Source of the DNA: Clostridia bacterium
Lineage (GTDB): Bacteria > Bacillota > Clostridia > Christensenellales > CAG-138
Direction: 5' to 3'
DNA: 64,000 nucleotides
NCBI GenBank assembly: GCA_017435905.1
Contig: JAFSEB010000080.1
Location: forward strand, 1-64,000
The notes under the pieces are model-generated. The model worked only from the letters and a program-made list of their open reading frames with translations, had not been told where the DNA came from and made no database searches. Made by a program: the position numbers and the translations under genes. This document shows, one piece after another, positions 2,320 through 45,866 of the stretch. Every line of letters begins with the position of its first letter. The stretch's first letter is position 1.

Positions 2320-4683
2320 ATGGCATTTTGTACCAATTGTGGCACAAAAGTCGATTCCGGCAAGTTCTGCCCAAACTGCGGCACACCGATCCAGCAGGTA
2401 GCCGCTCCCGTCCAGCCCTCTGCTTACACCGCACCTGTTGTGCAGGAGCCTGTCCCTGTGGTGGAAGCTCCTGTTTACGCCGCTCCTGTGGTGGAAGAGC
2501 CTGCTCCCGTGGTGGAAGCTCCCGTGTACACCGCTCCTGTAGTGGAAGAGCCTGCTCCCGTGGTGGAAGCTCCCGTGTACACCGCTCCTGTGGTGGAAGA
2601 GCCTGCTCCCGTGGTGGAAGCTCCCGTGTACACCGCTCCTGTGGTGGAAGAGCCTGCTCCTGTGGTGGAAGAACCCGCCCCCGTGGTGGAAGAGCCTGCC
2701 CCCGTGGTGGAAGCTCCCGTGTACACCGCTCCTGTAGTGGAAGAGCCTGCTCCCGTGGTGGAAGCTCCCGCGTACGCCGCTCCTGTAGTGGAAGAGCCTG
2801 CTCCCGTAGTTGAGGCTCCTGTATACGCCGCCCCTGTGGTGGAAGAACCCAAGCCTGTGATGGAAGAAGAACCCGAAGTTATTACCGGCAGCTATACTTT
2901 CCCCACTGCTGCAGCGCAGCCTGTGCAGCCTCCCGTGCAGCAGTATCAGCCTCCTGTGCAGCAGTACCAGCAGCCCCAGCAGCAGTACCAGCAGCCCGTG
3001 CAGCAGTACCAGCAGCCCCAGCAGCAGTATCAGCAGCCCCAGCAGCAGTACCAGCAGCCCCAGCAGCAGTACCAGCAGCCTCAGCAGCAGTATCAGCAGC
3101 CTCAGCAGCCTCAGCAGCAGAAACCTGCCAAGCCGCCCAAGCCCCCCAAAGCTCCGAAGGCTCCCAAAGCTCCGAAGGCTCCCAAAGCGTCCGGTCAGGG
3201 CGGTAAGAACAAGGCACTGCCCTTCATCATTGGCGGTGCGGCAGCGATCGTGATCCTCATCGTGGTGCTCGTGCTCGTTCTTGGCGGCAAGGGCGGCAAG
3301 GACGGCGCTGTCAGCGATCCCAACCTCGGCGTTTACGAAGCCACCACCGCTGAAATGTGGGGCATCGAAATGGCCGTCAGCGATATCTGGAGCGGCGGCT
3401 TCAGCATCGAACTGAAGGATAAGGGTAAGGCGAAGATCTTCATCGATGGCAAGGATGCCAACGGCAAGTGGACCAATGAAGACGGTGTCTTCAACGTAAA
3501 GGGCGGCGGTATTGACTGCAACGGCACCCTTGACAGCGGCGTCATGACCCTTGAAAATGTGCTTGACATGGGCGTGAACCTTACCTTCGAGAAGGAAGGC
3601 GGCTTCACTCCTGTGCCCGGCACCTCCGATGGCGGCAGCGATGCTCCCGATGCTCCCGACAATGCAGGCGGCAGCACGGAAGTCAGCGCCCTTGAAAAAC
3701 AGTGGGACGGCACCTGGTACGGCCTGATGTACGTTTACGAAGCTACCGGTGATTTCGCCGGCGTTCCTGCGGATTCGTATGATATCTACACCGTTGTGGA
3801 TGTGGACGGTTCCGGCAAGGGCAGCTTCAGCGTCTATCTTGACGGCGTCAGCGATGCTTTTGCCACCGCTACCTGCCAGGCTACCGATTACGGCCTCAAT
3901 GCCATCGAAGGCACCATGGCCGGCGGATTCCCCATGAATGCAAACAACTATACCTTCCTTCCCACCCCCGATTATAAGGAAAAGTATACTGTTTCCGACT
4001 GCATCGAGGATGGCGAGAGCAGCTTTGATTACACCATCTTCATCAAGCAGTGGGGCCAGAGCTGGGCGGCTGACATCGCCAGTGATTTCGAGCTTCTGCC
4101 TCCCTCTGTGAACGCTTACGAATCCGCCATCGCAGCGGGTGAACTTCCCTCCGTCGGCTTTGCACCTGCTTCCTTCAGCGGCAGCGCCTCTTCCGGCAGT
4201 GCTGCGGGCAGCGAAAGCAGCGGCAGTGCCTCCACCGGCAGCGCAGCAGGCTTCGGCAGCAGCCCCACGGCGGTCTATGACATCGGCGGCAGCGGCCGTG
4301 CTTACCTGACTTACCCCACCGACACCTTCTTCGTGGATGAAGAAGCTATCCTTGATACCGTTGCTGCACTCGATGGCAGCGTGGAGATCGGCATTGTGGG
4401 CAACATCAGCGCAGAGGACCACGATGCGACCCTTCAGGGCTATGCTACCTATGAAGGCTATGACGGCTTCACCAAGGAAGAGTTCACCGTGAACGGCTTT
4501 GATGCCACCATGATTACCTATGAGCACTTTCTCTACGGCTACTGCATGAATGTGCATGTGAACTACGGCAGCGAGATCAACGGCTGGTACGGCGTCAACT
4601 TCAGCGTTTCCTCTGAAGAATCCATGGATGCCTGCAAGAGCGATACCGTAATGGCCATCATCAACTCCCTTACCACTGCGTAA
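2320..4683 (+). CDS. Zinc-ribbon, repeat-rich single-pass membrane protein
   Basis: 787 residues. It opens with a zinc ribbon (CTNCG, then CPNCG). A long low-complexity region follows: 16-residue units of the type VVEEPAPVVEAPVYTA (about residues 45-185), Gln/Tyr/Pro repeats (QQYQQPQ, about 205-270) and a Lys/Pro/Ala stretch. One transmembrane helix lies near residue 310, and the rest is an acidic, Gly/Ser-rich domain predicted outside the cell. The first extracellular segment (GVYEATTAEMWG) and a later WYGLMYVYEA segment resemble pieces of the lipoprotein encoded next, so the two share modules. Cytoplasmic zinc ribbons joined to one helix are common in Firmicute membrane-stress loci. Specific function unknown. 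Confidence 0.8.
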   Translation: MAFCTNCGTKVDSGKFCPNCGTPIQQVAAPVQPSAYTAPVVQEPVPVVEAPVYAAPVVEEPAPVVEAPVYTAPVVEEPAPVVEAPVYTAPVVEEPAPVVEAPVYTAPVVEEPAPVVEEPAPVVEEPAPVVEAPVYTAPVVEEPAPVVEAPAYAAPVVEEPAPVVEAPVYAAPVVEEPKPVMEEEPEVITGSYTFPTAAAQPVQPPVQQYQPPVQQYQQPQQQYQQPVQQYQQPQQQYQQPQQQYQQPQQQYQQPQQQYQQPQQPQQQKPAKPPKPPKAPKAPKAPKAPKASGQGGKNKALPFIIGGAAAIVILIVVLVLVLGGKGGKDGAVSDPNLGVYEATTAEMWGIEMAVSDIWSGGFSIELKDKGKAKIFIDGKDANGKWTNEDGVFNVKGGGIDCNGTLDSGVMTLENVLDMGVNLTFEKEGGFTPVPGTSDGGSDAPDAPDNAGGSTEVSALEKQWDGTWYGLMYVYEATGDFAGVPADSYDIYTVVDVDGSGKGSFSVYLDGVSDAFATATCQATDYGLNAIEGTMAGGFPMNANNYTFLPTPDYKEKYTVSDCIEDGESSFDYTIFIKQWGQSWAADIASDFELLPPSVNAYESAIAAGELPSVGFAPASFSGSASSGSAAGSESSGSASTGSAAGFGSSPTAVYDIGGSGRAYLTYPTDTFFVDEEAILDTVAALDGSVEIGIVGNISAEDHDATLQGYATYEGYDGFTKEEFTVNGFDATMITYEHFLYGYCMNVHVNYGSEINGWYGVNFSVSSEESMDACKSDTVMAIINSLTTA
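2449..3190 (+). repeat. Coding tandem repeats (VEEPAP/VEAPVYTAP, QQYQQPQ and KAPKAP units)
   Basis: Three adjacent in-frame repeat tracts inside the zinc-ribbon protein gene. About 400 bp consist of 48-bp units with near-identical codons, about 180 bp of Gln-rich 21-24-bp units, and about 70 bp of Lys-Ala-Pro codons. High nucleotide identity between units suggests recent expansion and probable length polymorphism. Confidence 0.85.
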
Positions 4684-37814: not shown

Positions 37815-38510
37815 CTATCCGGCCATATCGCCCATGCCGTACCGAAGCTTGACACGGTCGAGCTTTTCAAGGAAGGGCTTGCCGAGGAAGAACAGCACAA
37901 GGAATGTGGGAACAGCCTGTGTGCAGTTGACGGGGAAGCCTGCAAGATAAATGGCAAGCGCCGTTTCCGGTGTCAGACGGGAAAGCATCATGAAGACGGA
38001 GCTCGTGTCAAGGAGCGGCCCGATGAACAGGATGACTGCCGCCGCACCGAAAAGCCCAAGCAGGAGGCGCTTACGGGGAAGAAGCCCACGCCTGAACAGA
38101 AAGCCCATCAGGCAGCCCCCCGCACCGTAAGCCATCATCTGCCACGGCGTGTGAGGCCCTTGCCCGAAGAAAAAGTTACTGACAAGGGCAGTGAGGGCGC
38201 CCACGAGGAAACCGCTTTCCGCACCGAGGGCGATGCCTGCCAGCATGATCATTGCATAGGTGGCTTTGAAGTTGGGGATGGGGATCACCACACGGCTTGC
38301 GATGGCAAGGGCAGAGAGCACCGCAAGCAGAACGAGCTCACGGGCTTCGGGCTTCCTTCCTTCAAAGGAAAGAAAGAAGGGGATCATGATCTCCAATATC
38401 ACAAGCAGGCTTGTGATGTAGTAGGAACGCCCCGGAAGCTTCCTGCCGAAAATGACCGTCAACGGGATCAGCAGCAGGGAGACAGCCGTCAGGATCTTTG
38501 TCTTTTTCAT
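37815..38510 (-). CDS. ECF transporter S component, probably corrinoid-specific
   Basis: 231 residues, six hydrophobic helices. The GIALGAESGFLVGALTALVS stretch and the FFFGQGPHTPWQMMAYGAGG loop are typical of ECF substrate-binding subunits found with DUF4430 lipoproteins and cobalamin riboswitches. It binds the vitamin in the membrane and passes it to the A-A-T module. Last gene of the operon. The substrate is inferred from context, not from residues. Confidence 0.8.
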   Translation of the reverse strand: MKKTKILTAVSLLLIPLTVIFGRKLPGRSYYITSLLVILEIMIPFFLSFEGRKPEARELVLLAVLSALAIASRVVIPIPNFKATYAMIMLAGIALGAESGFLVGALTALVSNFFFGQGPHTPWQMMAYGAGGCLMGFLFRRGLLPRKRLLLGLFGAAAVILFIGPLLDTSSVFMMLSRLTPETALAIYLAGFPVNCTQAVPTFLVLFFLGKPFLEKLDRVKLRYGMGDMAG

Positions 38511-38532: not shown

Positions 38533-39273
38533 TCATGTTTCCCCGTTTTTGTGGAAGGCGATCAGCCCAAAAAGATGCAGTTTGGTGGGATCCCATGCAA
38601 AGGGCAGGCCGCAGCGCTCTGCAAGGGCTGCAACATCGATACAGTAGGCGCTCATGCAGCTGATGCGCTGCTCCGGATGGGCGCAGGGGAGCCCTTTCGT
38701 TTTCAGACAGGGATCGCAAAGGGGACAGCCGTTATAGCCGGTGCAAAAGCCTTCATAGCCGTGCTCACGCATCGTTTTCATGAAACGCAGAACGGCGGCA
38801 TTATGCTCTTTCTTCGCCTGCAGAACGGCAGCCTTGTTTTCGTAGCCGTCAATGGGGTGGATGGTTTCGATCACAAGGGCGTGGGGCTGCGCAAGAAGGG
38901 TCGCATGGAGCGTCTCCACGCTGCCGCAATCCGGCGGGCAGGAATAGTTGGCACCGTACCTGCCGCAGATGTTCTGCTCACAGAATTGGCGGAATTTGCC
39001 GTCAACGGGCACTTCCTCCGTGGGAAGGAGCGATACGAGGAAGCCTTCTTCTTTTGCAAGTGCCGTCAGTTCCTGTTCCATGGTGTGTTTCCTTTCTTCC
39101 TTCAGGCCGGCTTGGCGCAATGCCTTTGGCCACGGGCCGAGAAATGCTTTGATACGGGCACGGGTGGTTTCGTCAAAATCCCCTTTGCAGGGGGTGCGGC
39201 CAAGCTCCTGCGCCTTTTGAACCAGCAGGCGAACAGCCCACAGGCGTTTTTCTTCTTCGGTAGCAAAGTGCAT
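38533..39273 (-). CDS. DUF2284 metal-binding protein with N-terminal HNH-repeat-like extension
   Basis: 246 residues. Residues about 65-246 are DUF2284, with Cys motifs CGRYGANYSCPPDCG, CTGYNGCPLCDPC and a late CAHPEQRISCMSAYCID; the clusters suggest bound Fe-S or metal. Residues 1-60 are different: KAQELGRTPCKGDFDETTRA and FLGPWPKALRQAGL resemble the homing-endonuclease-associated repeat, a small DNA-binding helical unit. An internal ATG at residue 64 (MEQELTALA) has AAAGGA ahead of it, so the metal domain may also be made alone. The start at 39273 lies 3 bases after the ATPase stop. Confidence 0.75.
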   Translation of the reverse strand: MHFATEEEKRLWAVRLLVQKAQELGRTPCKGDFDETTRARIKAFLGPWPKALRQAGLKEERKHTMEQELTALAKEEGFLVSLLPTEEVPVDGKFRQFCEQNICGRYGANYSCPPDCGSVETLHATLLAQPHALVIETIHPIDGYENKAAVLQAKKEHNAAVLRFMKTMREHGYEGFCTGYNGCPLCDPCLKTKGLPCAHPEQRISCMSAYCIDVAALAERCGLPFAWDPTKLHLFGLIAFHKNGET

Positions 39274-39276
39274 GCG

Positions 39277-40932
39277 TTACCCTTCCTGCGAAGCGGTGTT
39301 CCTTTGGTAAAGGGCGACTACATCCTCCGCCGTTACCGCCATGGAGAATACGTGGCGGCTCATGCGGTTGGCGGCGGTGGTGTAAAAGCTGTTGCCGCCG
39401 AAAAATCGACGGGGCGTATCCGTGGTCATGATCTGCCCGTCAAAGAACATGGAGACAAGATCCGCATATTTGGCGCAGAATTCCACATCGTGGGATACCA
39501 TGATCACGGTGATGCCTTCCGCTGTCAGCTTTTTGAGGGTCTCCGCCAGCTTTTCCTTGAAAAAGCCGTCAATGCCCTTTGTGGGCTCATCAAGAAGCAG
39601 CAGCTTCGGTTCCGTCAAAAGCACCTTTGCAAGGGCTGCACGCTGCTGCTCGCCGCCGGAAAGATCATAGGGGTGGCTGTCCATGACGGAAAGGATGTCG
39701 CAGCTTTGTGCGGCGGCGGCGATCTTCTCTTCATCGGTACACATTTCAAGCAGCTCTTCCCGAACGGTTTTTGCCGCAAACAGGCTCTTTGGATCCTGCG
39801 GCAGCATGGCGAGGGTACCTTTAAACAGCTTTGCGCCTTTGTTGGGCTTGCCGAAGAGGGAGACCTTTCCCCTGTAGGGCTTTGCAATGCCGGCAATGGC
39901 TTTAAGGAGCGTAGATTTTCCTGCGCCGTTGCCGCCTACGATGGCGTAAATGCAGCCTGTGGGGATCTCCGCATGCACGCCCCGGAGGATATCGGCGCTG
40001 TCCTTTTCATAGCGGAACCAGACTTCCCTGAGGGAAAGGGCAGGGGGCTCGCTTGCTGCCGGTGCAGGCGTATCGGGCAGGGAGGGGATAGAAGCGCCCT
40101 GCGGAAAGCTGCGGCTGAGCCATGTGCGCCCATCCCTGACGGTGAGGGGGCTTGTCCCTTCGCAATGAGCGCCGTAAAATACACGCACCGGCGCAGGCAT
40201 GGCGGCAAACATGTCGCTTTTCTGCGCCCAAAGCTTTGCGCCGATATTTCCCGGGGTATCATCCGCAATAATGCGGCCCTGTTCCATCACGATGGCCCTG
40301 TCCGCATAGGGGAAGATATCCTCAAGGCGGTGTTCCGATAGGATCACGGTGGTGCCAAGTTCGATGTTGATCTTTCTGACGGTGTTGAGGAAATCGGAAG
40401 CGGCAATGGGATCAAGCTGGCTTGTAGGCTCATCAAGGATGAGCACCTCGGGCTGCATGGCCATGATGGAAGCAAGGTTGAGAAGCTGTTTCTGACCGCC
40501 GCTCAGGGTCTCCACATCCCGGTGGAACCAATCCTGTATGCCGAAATAGCAGGCCATTTCCGCCACACGGGCACGCATGGCGTTGGGTGCAACGCCAAGG
40601 CTTTCAAGGCCAAAGGCAAGCTCGTGCCAAACCTTGTCCGTCACGATCTGATCATCGGGGTTTTGCATCACAAAGCCGATCTTTGCGGCCTGCTCAAAGG
40701 GAGGCACTTCCTCAAGGGGCATGCCGTTGAAAAGCACGGTGCCGCTTTTTTTGCCGCCGGGGGCAAGCACGCTTTTCAGGTGGCGAAGCAGTGTGGTCTT
40801 TCCGCTGCCGCTCCTGCCGCAAAGAACGATGTATTCGCCTTTTTCCACCGTCAGATCCACATGGGAAAGGCAGGCCTTTCCCCGTGCGGTGGCGTGGGAA
40901 AAGCTCAGATCCCGGATCTCAAAATGTGCCAT
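39277..40932 (-). CDS. ECF transporter ATPase, two nucleotide-binding domains fused
   Basis: 551 residues from the ATG at 40932 (GGAGG site). Two ABC domains in tandem, EcfA1-EcfA2 style. The first has Walker A CGRSGSGKTTLL, signature LSGGQKQLLN and Walker B VLILDEPTSQLD. The second has Walker A GGNGAGKSTLL, signature LSGGEQQRAA and Walker B LLLLDEPTKGID. A single chain replaces the usual two subunits. It powers the S and T subunits on either side. Confidence 0.93.
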   Translation of the reverse strand: MAHFEIRDLSFSHATARGKACLSHVDLTVEKGEYIVLCGRSGSGKTTLLRHLKSVLAPGGKKSGTVLFNGMPLEEVPPFEQAAKIGFVMQNPDDQIVTDKVWHELAFGLESLGVAPNAMRARVAEMACYFGIQDWFHRDVETLSGGQKQLLNLASIMAMQPEVLILDEPTSQLDPIAASDFLNTVRKINIELGTTVILSEHRLEDIFPYADRAIVMEQGRIIADDTPGNIGAKLWAQKSDMFAAMPAPVRVFYGAHCEGTSPLTVRDGRTWLSRSFPQGASIPSLPDTPAPAASEPPALSLREVWFRYEKDSADILRGVHAEIPTGCIYAIVGGNGAGKSTLLKAIAGIAKPYRGKVSLFGKPNKGAKLFKGTLAMLPQDPKSLFAAKTVREELLEMCTDEEKIAAAAQSCDILSVMDSHPYDLSGGEQQRAALAKVLLTEPKLLLLDEPTKGIDGFFKEKLAETLKKLTAEGITVIMVSHDVEFCAKYADLVSMFFDGQIMTTDTPRRFFGGNSFYTTAANRMSRHVFSMAVTAEDVVALYQRNTASQEG

Positions 40933-41786
40933 GTGAGGGCCTCCTTCAGGTGCAGAAATGTGGGAAGAAGCAAAAGCAGCAGATAGCAGCCAAGACCGAA
41001 GGGCGAAAGGGGCGCCACGTCCCAAAGGGGCGTGAAGGCGGCGGCGGTATCGCCCCGCAGCATGGAGAATACGACCCCTGCGCCAAGGAACAGCGTCATG
41101 AACATCAGGATGCCGTCACGCAGGGTGAAGCGGTACTGCAGGAAGCTCGTACGCTTTTTTGTGCCGTAGCCCCTGCTTCGCATGGAGTCTGCGGTCACAA
41201 TGCTGCCTTCAAGGGCCCAATCGGTGAGGCTGCCGAGAAGCAGCATGCCGTTTTTTGCTTTTTCCGTATATTTGGCGTCGCCGGCAACGCTTTTGCCGAT
41301 GGCCATCCGTGCGCCGGTGATCTGCCTGCCCTTTCGCATGAAGTTCGGGATCATGCGCAGCACCATCACAAGAAGCAGGGAGAGGGCAGGGATCAGGTTC
41401 GCAAACAGGCTTGTGAATTTATCGCTTGTCATCACGGCGCCGTAGCAGCCGCACCAAAGTATCATCAGCAGGAATATGCCGGAAAGAACGGTGCCGTAAA
41501 TCAGGGATTCAAGGGTGTAGGGAATGCTGAAAACCGTGAAAAGGACAGTCCGTCCCGTGCGGTTCATAAGCGGATTCAACACCGCCACCGCAATGAGAAG
41601 CGGCAGGGAGAAGAGGAGCAGCTTCAGCCCTTTCGTTCCCGTCAGAAGGAGATAGTATGCAAGGGCTGCACACACACCTGCAGCCACGAATGCCGGGTGC
41701 TGAATGAGCACGCCAAGGAGCATGACAAGAATAAAAAACAGAAAGCTCACCGCCGGGTGACAGCGGGAAAACGCATCTTGCTTCAA
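40905..41786 (-). CDS. ecfT: ECF transporter transmembrane (T) component
   Basis: 293 residues if started at TTG (41786), which sits 8 bases after CCGGAGG; the longer open frame to 41870 would translate the leader's terminator and is rejected. Several helices at the N-terminus, then the coupling motif region with MRSRGYGTKKR (the Ala/Arg-Gly signature that contacts the ATPase). It overlaps the ATPase start by 28 bases. Confidence 0.87.
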   Translation of the reverse strand: MKQDAFSRCHPAVSFLFFILVMLLGVLIQHPAFVAAGVCAALAYYLLLTGTKGLKLLLFSLPLLIAVAVLNPLMNRTGRTVLFTVFSIPYTLESLIYGTVLSGIFLLMILWCGCYGAVMTSDKFTSLFANLIPALSLLLVMVLRMIPNFMRKGRQITGARMAIGKSVAGDAKYTEKAKNGMLLLGSLTDWALEGSIVTADSMRSRGYGTKKRTSFLQYRFTLRDGILMFMTLFLGAGVVFSMLRGDTAAAFTPLWDVAPLSPFGLGCYLLLLLLPTFLHLKEALTWHILRSGI

Positions 41787-41801: not shown

Positions 41802-41833
41802 AAAAAAGAAAAAGCTCCCGAAAAACGGGAGCG
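41802..41833 (-). terminator. Terminator in the ecfT leader (expression platform)
   Basis: On the minus strand GCTCCCG pairs with CGGGAGC, followed by TTTTTCTTTTTT, ending 15 bases before the TTG start. A stop hairpin inside a 5' leader implies regulation by transcription attenuation. Confidence 0.82.
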
Positions 41834-41886
41834 GATACACGGTGCAAAAGCCGCACAGGACAGCCCCCAAGAGTCCTGCGAAACTG

Positions 41887-42027
41887 GATCAAAGACCTGT
41901 ATTCCGACTCCGGACGCCCACTTTGGTGTCTCTTCTCGGCAAACTTGCCAATGAGAACACCGGGCGATCATGTCCGTCTACGGCGGCTTGGTACCGTTGG
42001 GATTTCCCCATTCCGAAACCTTTGATC
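41887..42027 (-). ncRNA. Structured leader RNA of the ECF operon; candidate riboswitch of unassigned class
   Basis: A 141-nt domain closed by a perfect 8-bp P1 (GATCAAAG with CTTTGATC). Inside are a GGG-GAAA-TCCC hairpin, an ACGG/CCGT hairpin, and a long arm (GGAC..GCCC with GGGC-GTCC, then GGTGT..TCTC with GAGA-CACC, tipped by GGCA-AGTT-TGCC). It is followed by a terminator just before ecfT. The plus-strand neighbour has a clear B12 box; this leader does not, and I see no motif of cobalamin, FMN, TPP, lysine, SAM or T-box RNAs. Ligand unknown; a corrinoid or precursor would fit the operon. Confidence 0.6.
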
Positions 42028-42130: not shown

Positions 42131-42150
42131 TTACGGCACAACAGAATCAT

Positions 42151-42330
42151 CGTTTGAGTAACGGTGGGTGCGCAAAGCCCCACAGTGAAAGAGAATCGTG
42201 TCAGAATCACGAACGGTACCGCCACTGTAATTGCGGAGGCTTCACACCTGGTGAAAACCGGCCATTGGGGAAACCTGAGAAGGCTGTGTGAAGGCTGATG
42301 ATGCATAAGTCAGGAGAACTGCTCAAACGG
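42151..42330 (+). ncRNA. Cobalamin (B12) riboswitch
   Basis: P1 is formed by CGTTTGAG and CTCAAACG. The conserved core includes GGTGGGTGCGCAAAGCCCC, the ACCGCCACTGTAA segment and the B12 box AAGTCAGGAGAAC near the 3' end. This is the standard AdoCbl aptamer; when bound it should favour the terminator at 42390 and shut off the DUF4430 gene. Confidence 0.92.
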
Positions 42331-42389
42331 TTTTATTCTTCTTTGCCTGCAAGTACGGGCGAAGATGAAACCGACGCGGGAAAACGGCT

Positions 42390-42440: not shown

Positions 42441-42546
42441 TTAACAGCTTGCTGTGAAAGATAGCACGGTCTGCCAAACAGGTGAAAAGCCTGTACGTGA
42501 CCGCCGCCGTGAAGCGAAGAACGCAAGTCGGCAGGGGCGGACCGTG
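42441..42546 (+). ncRNA. Possible second, compact cobalamin-like aptamer
   Basis: After the terminator, CACGGTC-TGCC pairs with GGCA..GACCGTG around CCAAACAGGTGAAAAGCCTG, ACCGCCGCCGTGAAGCG and AAGTCGGCAGGGG. These echo, in order, the aptamer's GGGAA..GGTGAAA..CC, ACCGCCACTGTAA and AAGTCAGGAGA elements. It could be a degenerate or class-II-like B12 element in tandem with the first. Uncertain without covariance scoring. Confidence 0.4.
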
Positions 42547-42605: not shown

Positions 42606-43019
42606 ATGAAAAAGATCCTTGCCCTCATCCTTGCGCTTGTGATGGCGCTGTCCCTTGCTGCCTGTGCCGGTCAGACCGAAGGCGGCGAAGCCGCAGCCGT
42701 GGCAAAAGACGGCGATACCCTTGGCGAAGGTGCGACCGCATTTGCCCTTGAGATCACCGGCAAAGACGGCGAAACCATTGCTGTGACTGTCAATACCGAT
42801 GCGACCACCGTCGGCGAAGCGCTGCTTGCCGTTGAACTCATCGCCGGCGAAGAAAGCGAATACGGCCTTTATGTGACCACCGTTAACGGCGAGACCCTCA
42901 GCTGGGAAGAGGATGCGCTTTACTGGGCATTCTACATTGACGGCGAATATGCGATGACCGGCGTTGACATGACCGACGTTACTGCAGGCGCCTCCTACGC
43001 CCTCAAGGCAGAAGGCTAA
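42606..43019 (+). CDS. DUF4430 lipoprotein, probable corrinoid-binding partner of the ECF transporter
   Basis: 137 residues. The signal peptide has lipobox LSLAAC. A single DUF4430 domain follows (GDTLGEGATAFALEITGKDG, then DALYWAFYIDGEYAMTGVD), the fold related to the C-terminal half of intrinsic factor/transcobalamin. Controlled by a B12 riboswitch and facing the ECF operon. It probably captures corrinoids outside the membrane for the S component. The family link is established; the specific ligand is inferred. Confidence 0.85.
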   Translation: MKKILALILALVMALSLAACAGQTEGGEAAAVAKDGDTLGEGATAFALEITGKDGETIAVTVNTDATTVGEALLAVELIAGEESEYGLYVTTVNGETLSWEEDALYWAFYIDGEYAMTGVDMTDVTAGASYALKAEG

Positions 43020-44546: not shown

Positions 44547-44750
44547 ATTACCAAGTATGGGAACGTTCCCATCAAGGAATATGCGGCTGCCCTGCACTCC
44601 ACAAAATGCATGGCGGTACGAAAGAAAAGGAGGAACTTTTTCCGCAGGGCTTGCGGTGCGGCAGTGTGGAGACCTGCCGTAATGCACGGCACAGCATGCC
44701 TGTGCGTGTGAGGCGACATGAGCGGAGGCTCTGCCGTCAAAGCCGGGAAC

Positions 44751-45866
44751 ATGGCAAAGGTCACATTAAAGGATGTCAAGAAGGTCTATGACAAGAGCGT
44801 CGTAGCGGTCCAGGAATTCAACCTTGAGATCGCAGACAAGGAATTCATCGTGCTGGTCGGCCCCTCGGGCTGCGGCAAATCCACCACGCTGCGCATGGTC
44901 GCAGGTCTTGAAGAGATCTCCTCCGGCGAGCTCTACATCGGCGACAAGCTCGTGAACGATGTGCCGCCCAAAGATCGCGACATCGCAATGGTATTCCAGA
45001 ACTACGCCCTCTATCCGCACATGACCGTTTACGAGAACATGGCATTCGCCCTGAAGCTCCGCAAGGAGAAGAAGGAAGTCATCGATCAGAAGGTGCGTGA
45101 AGCTGCCGAGATCCTCGACATTACCCAGTATCTTGACCGTAAACCCAAGGCTCTTTCCGGCGGTCAGCGCCAGCGTGTGGCCATCGGCCGTGCCATCGTC
45201 CGCGATCCGCAGGTATTCCTGATGGACGAACCCCTTTCCAACCTGGATGCCAAGCTGCGCAACCAGATGCGTGCGGAGATCATCAAGCTCCGTCAGCGCA
45301 TCAACACCACCTTCATCTACGTTACTCACGATCAGACCGAAGCCATGACCCTTGGCGACCGCATCGTGATCATGAAGGATGGCTTCATTCAGCAGATCGG
45401 CACTCCTCATGAGGTATTCAACCACCCTGCCAACCTCTTCGTTGCAGGCTTCATCGGCTCTCCGCAGATGAACTTCTTCGATGCCCGTCTTGAAAAGGAC
45501 GAAAAGGGCTACAGCGTGGTGCTCGACAGCGCAAAGGTCTATCTCCCCGAAGAGAAGCAGGAAGCCCTGAAAGCTGCCGGCGCTGCGGCGCAGGATATCA
45601 CCCTCGGCATCCGCCCCGAGCATATCATGCTTTCCAAGGGCGGCGAGGAAGCACACATCACCGCTACGGTGGATGTTTCCGAAATGATGGGCAGCTCCAT
45701 CCACATGCATGCCAACATGGGCGGCAAGGATGTTGTCATCATCATCCCCACCCTTGACCTCGGCGCCCGTGAAGAGGAATTCACCTTCGGCGCAAAGGTG
45801 GAATTTACCTTCGGCGGCAACGTGGTGCATATGTTCAACAAGGAAACCGGCATGAACCTCATCTAA
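44751..45866 (+). CDS. Carbohydrate ABC transporter ATPase (UgpC/MsmK type)
   Basis: 371 residues. Walker A GPSGCGKSTTL, Q-loop FQNYALYPHM, signature LSGGQRQRV, Walker B VFLMDEPLSNLD, switch His THDQTEAM, then the C-terminal TOBE/regulatory domain (TLGIRPEHIMLSKGG). Standard length for ATPases that serve several CUT1 sugar importers. No permease or binding-protein gene lies nearby, so it probably works in trans. The start is chosen by family alignment; its ribosome site is weak. Confidence 0.93.
   Translation: MAKVTLKDVKKVYDKSVVAVQEFNLEIADKEFIVLVGPSGCGKSTTLRMVAGLEEISSGELYIGDKLVNDVPPKDRDIAMVFQNYALYPHMTVYENMAFALKLRKEKKEVIDQKVREAAEILDITQYLDRKPKALSGGQRQRVAIGRAIVRDPQVFLMDEPLSNLDAKLRNQMRAEIIKLRQRINTTFIYVTHDQTEAMTLGDRIVIMKDGFIQQIGTPHEVFNHPANLFVAGFIGSPQMNFFDARLEKDEKGYSVVLDSAKVYLPEEKQEALKAAGAAAQDITLGIRPEHIMLSKGGEEAHITATVDVSEMMGSSIHMHANMGGKDVVIIIPTLDLGAREEEFTFGAKVEFTFGGNVVHMFNKETGMNLI

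Follow-up and report, generated by a model that had tools for sequence, protein, structure and literature searches.

The stretch analysed here, hereafter the window, comprises positions 1 to 64,000 of contig JAFSEB010000080.1 from a Clostridia bacterium (assembly GCA_017435905.1). On its minus strand it carries an operon for an energy-coupling factor (ECF) transporter, ecfT-ecfA-DUF2284-ecfS, and on its plus strand a divergent transcript with a cobalamin riboswitch. Our subject is the leader RNA of the transporter operon, which extends from 42027 as far as the ecfT start codon, a TTG at 41786. From covariance models, conserved motifs and relatives in other genomes, we conclude that this leader is very probably a diverged, conserved subtype of class-I-like cobalamin riboswitch that controls transcription termination of an ECF corrinoid-uptake operon; the identity of its ligand we infer from homology.

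A sequence-only reading of the window had placed in this leader a 141-nucleotide (nt) domain with three internal arms, closed by a perfect 8-base-pair (bp) P1, followed by a terminator 15 bases from a TTG start with its ribosome site, and all of these are found as it described them. P1 pairs GATCAAAG (42027–42020) with CTTTGATC (41894–41887), and grows to 12 bp if G-U pairs are counted. The folding energy of a 144-nt stretch is −53.8 kcal/mol against −42.0 +/- 4.0 kcal/mol for shuffled sequences (z −2.93), and none of 200 shuffles was equally stable. The terminator, GCTCCCG-TTTTT-CGGGAGC, occupies 41832–41814, and its U-rich tract reaches 41802; downstream come CGGAGG and then the TTG, with exactly 15 bases from tract to start. 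This start codon is backed by homologues that begin MKRDAF or MKHDAF at the same place. A conserved hairpin (41880–41854, loop UCUUGGGGGCU), absent from the earlier list of features, separates the domain from the terminator; we call it P13.

The relation to cobalamin riboswitches escapes the standard models in the window itself. No member of the cobalamin clan matches the leader even at E<=10, and the best Rfam match there is a chance small RNA (18 bits, E 0.07); no family is called, in agreement with the sequence-only reading, which could place the leader in no known class. R1, a covariance model trained on ordinary cobalamin cores from relatives (31 sequences, the variant excluded), nevertheless scores the leader at 34.0 bits with filters off (E 8.5e-7 in the 64-kb window); E-values of models of this type are rough, but the gap in bit score is large, as the ordinary riboswitch of the window scores 99.7 bits, a third cobalamin-like element 22.4 bits and everything else at most 12.2 bits. 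The same model gives the same-genus copy 31.8 bits and detects all 26 relatives tested (28–44 bits). In five of the 20 relatives scanned (L116, L127, L110, L107 and L123; 33.0–40.7 bits), the variant site also passes the RF00174 gathering score of 31.5 bits, which formally ties the variant to that family.

The motifs of the leader are arranged one after another as in the cobalamin core: GGAA-P4-AACGGUACC..GCCGCCGUA, then CAUUGG...GAGAAG, then GGAGUCGGAAUAC. The variant retains 17–19 of the 20 positions that are invariant in ordinary cores. Its B12-box-like J6/3 strand, AGUCGGAAUAC, aligns to AGYCRGRADAC of ordinary cobalamin riboswitches, and the P6 3' strand/J6/3 segment is nearly fixed across alignments A6 and A7. 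The P6 accessory region of class I is present as the CAUUGG...GAGAAG arm, with a U-G pair in all members and C-G/U-A covariation, while the P3–P6 four-way junction with its closing P1 shows covariation on alignment A8 that 0 of 500 shuffles reached. The divergent neighbour, which the earlier reading had taken for a cobalamin riboswitch, is indeed one (RF00174, 75.3 bits). That two different kinds of RNA sensor face each other here does not hold, as R1, the 26 relatives and the five RF00174 matches place leader and neighbour in the same cobalamin superfamily.

Relatives came from scanning 84,980 species genomes with a degenerate motif pattern that included the L5 motif and left L13 free, which yielded 27 loci of the same variant, nearly all from Oscillospiraceae and other Clostridia. 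Neither BLAST nor a two-sequence model (R2) supplied them: with the leader as query, BLAST within the window's own family returned the same-genus copy as the sole real match, and R2 detected no additional copy when run on 396 genomes of the order. A model of the variant (R3) added members, some of them quite diverged (L156–L158, 78–94 bits), and sampling 400 genomes around one diverged member found by R3 turned up clear members in 9. The subtype is recurrent in many gut Clostridia. Its members lack the P2 arm, have a short L4, and carry an enlarged, invariant L5 (UACCAAG) complementary to CUUGG of an equally invariant L13. A further pattern search requiring CCGGAATAC was mis-specified and uninformative, as most members carry GTCGGAATAC.

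The pairing itself, whose lack of conservation in relatives the earlier reading had named as grounds for refutation, is strongly conserved. In a structure-guided alignment of 29 members, which was fitted to the structure, 93.6% of cells are paired and 25 of 42 pairs change on both sides; cells with a double change number 188, where shuffles give 59 +/- 7. No covariation measure was matched in 500 shuffles, and slid controls drop to 28–48% paired. A plain MAFFT alignment of 23 members agrees (86.0% paired, 21 pairs). P5 and P6 are invariant, and so are paired without covariation. Coordinates of the elements of the leader and of the genes around it are collected in the table.

Features of the leader RNA and its surroundings in the window, with the evidence for each
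Feature	Position	Strand	Evidence or remark
Aptamer domain	41887..42027	-	R1 34.0 bits, E 8.5e-7, filters off; R3 122.2 bits; covariation in 29 sequences
P1 including G-U pairs	42027-42016 with 41898-41887	-	within aptamer domain
P4 hairpin TGGG-GAAAT-CCCA	42010-41998	-	within aptamer domain
P5/L5	41995-41985	-	within aptamer domain, alongside P6 and its accessory arms
L5 CCAAG in loop UACCAAG, aptamer half of predicted L5-L13 kissing loop	41987..41991	-	29/29 members, complementary to CUUGG of L13
P6 3' strand and B12-box-like GTCCGGAGTCGGAATAC (J6/3)	41899..41915	-	aligned to AGYCRGRADAC of ordinary cobalamin riboswitches
P13 hairpin CGCAGGAC-TCTTGGGGGCT-GTCCTGTG, loop L13	41854..41880	-	compensated stem changes; loop CUCUUGGGG in 29/29
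Predicted antiterminator 5' strand TGGGGGC	41863..41869	-	complementary to 41832-41826
Intrinsic terminator and U-rich tract	41802..41832	-	sequence; relatives with same architecture
ecfT-like ECF transmembrane component, TTG start	40905..41786	-	homologues in relatives, 33-89% identity; named from operon context
ecfA, ECF ATPase with two fused domains (ORF begins inside this range)	39277..40935	-	TIGR04520 331.5 bits, above cut-off
DUF2284 metal-binding protein with N-terminal HNH-repeat domain, inside transporter operon	38533..39273	-	PF10050, PF18780
ECF transporter S component	37815..38510	-	PF07155, PF12822
Ordinary cobalamin riboswitch of divergent transcript	42142..42340	+	RF00174 75.3 bits
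DUF4430 lipoprotein downstream of divergent riboswitch	42606..43019	+	PF14478

A kissing loop between L5 and L13 is canonical for the cobalamin class, with UCCCG as the L5 consensus (PMC10653944). Adopting this numbering makes UACCAAG the canonical L5, and we dropped an assignment of it as L4 with a relocated kissing loop. CCAAG of L5 is complementary to CUUGG of L13 in 29 of 29 members, and the stem that presents L13 compensates across members (GGAC/GTCC, GGCC/GGCC, AGAC/GTCT, GAAC/GTTC). A script detected the terminator in 25 of 27 leaders, and in all 25 of these L13 shares 6–10 complementary bases with the terminator 5' arm or its flanks, usually UUGGGG with CCCCAA or GUCCCC; in two of them (L108 and L122) the closest match is weak and of a kind other than CCC. 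Both complementarities, of L13 to L5 and of L13 to the terminator, are thus observed in the sequences, alongside the homology, the covarying fold and the gene context. Two other pairings were considered and set aside. One, seen in the minimum free energy fold, joins the aptamer to GCGGCTTTTGCACCGT over a long range, and the same-genus copy preserves it only in part. The other, between L13 and the P4 3' strand (CCCAA), is disfavoured, as L158 is without CCCAA yet keeps L13.

That L13 is complementary to both L5 and the terminator 5' arm suggests a simple OFF switch. An adenosylated corrinoid would bind the P3–P6 junction, and the bound aptamer would dock L5 (CCAAG) onto L13 (CUUGG), stabilising P13. 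With L13 so held, the terminator would form and ecfT-A-DUF2284-S would be off. Without ligand, UGGGGGC of L13 could pair with the terminator 5' arm (GCUCCCG) as an antiterminator, leaving the operon on. In a partial transcript of the window ending at the terminator 5' arm, the predicted energies of P13 (−16.2 kcal/mol) and of the antiterminator (−16.0 kcal/mol) are within 0.2 kcal/mol of each other. The ligand, the transporter substrate, the OFF direction and the dynamics in this scheme are all putative; read in this way, the riboswitch probably shuts down cobamide uptake once the vitamin is abundant.

Several observations weigh against this interpretation. The window copy is below Rfam's reporting limit, P1 of the same-genus copy has one A-C mismatch, and L5 differs from the published consensus. 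Since L5 and L13 are both invariant, covariation has no bearing on the kissing loop, and most members were found with a pattern that already contained the L5 motif. For two short loops to share five complementary bases would not be a very improbable coincidence, and CUUGG is also found within 90 nt in 20 of 117 other cobalamin-like leaders. A low score with the family model, together with loss of the P2 arm and of a normal L5, is what a decayed cobalamin riboswitch with a now constitutive or inactive terminator could look like. However, no fewer than 29 sequences have the identical changes fixed, whereas decay would scatter; the core is near-invariant, and changes are compensated in P1, the P6 accessory arms and P13, and we consider decay very unlikely. 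The sequence-only reading had proposed a new transcription-attenuating riboswitch ahead of the ECF operon. An attenuating riboswitch, unseen by Rfam, it very probably is, but a wholly new class unrelated to cobalamin riboswitches, which the absence of an Rfam match in the window would favour, is scarcely credible, and is largely refuted by the R1 score of the leader, the recovery of all 26 relatives, the five relatives above the RF00174 cut-off and the identical order of motifs.

A subtler alternative is that the variant uses a cobalamin scaffold to sense another molecule of the pathway, such as cobinamide, a cobamide with a particular lower ligand, alpha-ribazole or dimethylbenzimidazole. Close to the variant and on the opposite strand, typically back to back with it, there is an ordinary cobalamin riboswitch both in the window and at 10 of 26 loci, and a sharply conserved subtype in such a position would be superfluous were the two to sense one compound equally well; some members, moreover, precede cbiR-like-cobT-cobU, which are lower-ligand steps. 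However, J6/3 and P6 are retained, as are most of the other positions that do not vary among ordinary cores, divergent pairs of ordinary riboswitches are common in this bacterial family, so that pairing alone needs no second ligand, and in one study every one of the 38 functional cobalamin riboswitches responded to several corrinoids (PMC9600662). A changed ligand therefore seems rather unlikely to us. A more far-reaching reading, which we likewise hold to be rather unlikely, is that the subtype, with its short L4 and locked L5-L13 pair, is adapted to one form of corrinoid, such as base-off corrinoids or cobinamide. If so, could neighbouring riboswitches of one superfamily be gauging different corrinoid pools, and so steering uptake and cobamide remodelling in gut Clostridia?

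The gene contexts of members are cobamide-related. Downstream lie ecfT-ecfA-ecfS, DUF4430 lipoprotein genes followed by ecfT, or CbiR-like-cobT-cobU, where the CbiR-like gene scores 49 bits, below cut-off, and cobT 415 bits. CbiR is a cobamide-remodelling enzyme (PMC7733943), and DUF4430 is found at the C-terminus of transcobalamins (PMC4350170). The ecfT-like protein of the window has no Pfam or NCBIfam match. In L004, L009 and L012, RF00174 riboswitches of the ordinary type immediately precede more distant ecfT homologues. Also encoded on the plus strand of the window is a TIM-barrel protein resembling CbiR, whose score of 34 bits falls short of the curated cut-off. The back-to-back pairs of ordinary cobalamin riboswitches in this family lie around other genes (L085–L089, L092, L098, L099). 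Between the ordinary riboswitch of the window and the DUF4430 gene lies a third, compact cobalamin-like element (42465–42546, plus strand) with an 11-bp P1, which scores 22.4 bits with R1 (E 4.6e-4) and 18.6 bits with RF01482 (cut-off 50), and is also found in the same-genus copy. Its J6/3 looks degenerate, and it may therefore be a tandem sensor or a decaying one. A similar tandem occurs in L127, where a weak second cobalamin-like match (3676–3795, plus strand, 24.8 bits) lies downstream of an ordinary riboswitch (3152–3286, plus strand), just ahead of a DUF4430 lipoprotein gene. Elsewhere in the window, a malK-I RNA motif (RF03069, 137.7 bits, 44579–44756, plus strand) precedes a sugar-transport-type ABC ATPase gene, and it too is in the same-genus copy.

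What is new here is a conserved subtype without P2, with a short L4 and a locked L5-L13 pair, tied to cobamide uptake and remodelling; we did not find it described in the open-access library searched, which is incomplete. It belongs to one of the most widespread riboswitch classes, and the standard model misses most of it (15 of the 20 relatives scanned fall below the RF00174 cut-off), which leaves cobamide uptake and remodelling regulons under-annotated in gut Clostridia. With its fixed L5 and L13, the subtype is also a natural system for testing how the kissing loop determines corrinoid selectivity.

Compared with RF00174 (class I, adenosylcobalamin (AdoCbl) type), the variant shares the P3–P6 junction, the B12-box-like J6/3, the P6 accessory arm with CAYUGG...GAGAAG, L5-L13 complementarity, a terminator platform and a vitamin B12 gene context. 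It differs in having no P2 hairpin, in a shortened P4 loop (NAAAU for UGaaAAU), in the enlarged L5 and in an L13 fixed as CUCUUGGGG. The AdoCbl family RF01482, of the same clan (CL00101) as the cobalamin riboswitch, has no covariance-model match in the leader at E<=10. The divergent riboswitch of the window has in common with the variant the GGUACC-GCC-C-GUA core, CAUUGG...GAGAAG and the AGUC-G-A-AC segment; unlike the variant, it is ordinary, with a P2 arm and a normal L5. The mechanism proposed for the variant resembles that of the experimentally dissected Priestia megaterium metE corrinoid riboswitch, in which a kissing loop stabilises P13 and part of P13 otherwise acts as an antiterminator through the terminator 5' arm (PMC10653944). 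The metE element represses, and the variant is predicted to do so too; in the variant the competing part is mainly the loop L13 itself, and its L5 and L13 sequences differ from those of metE.
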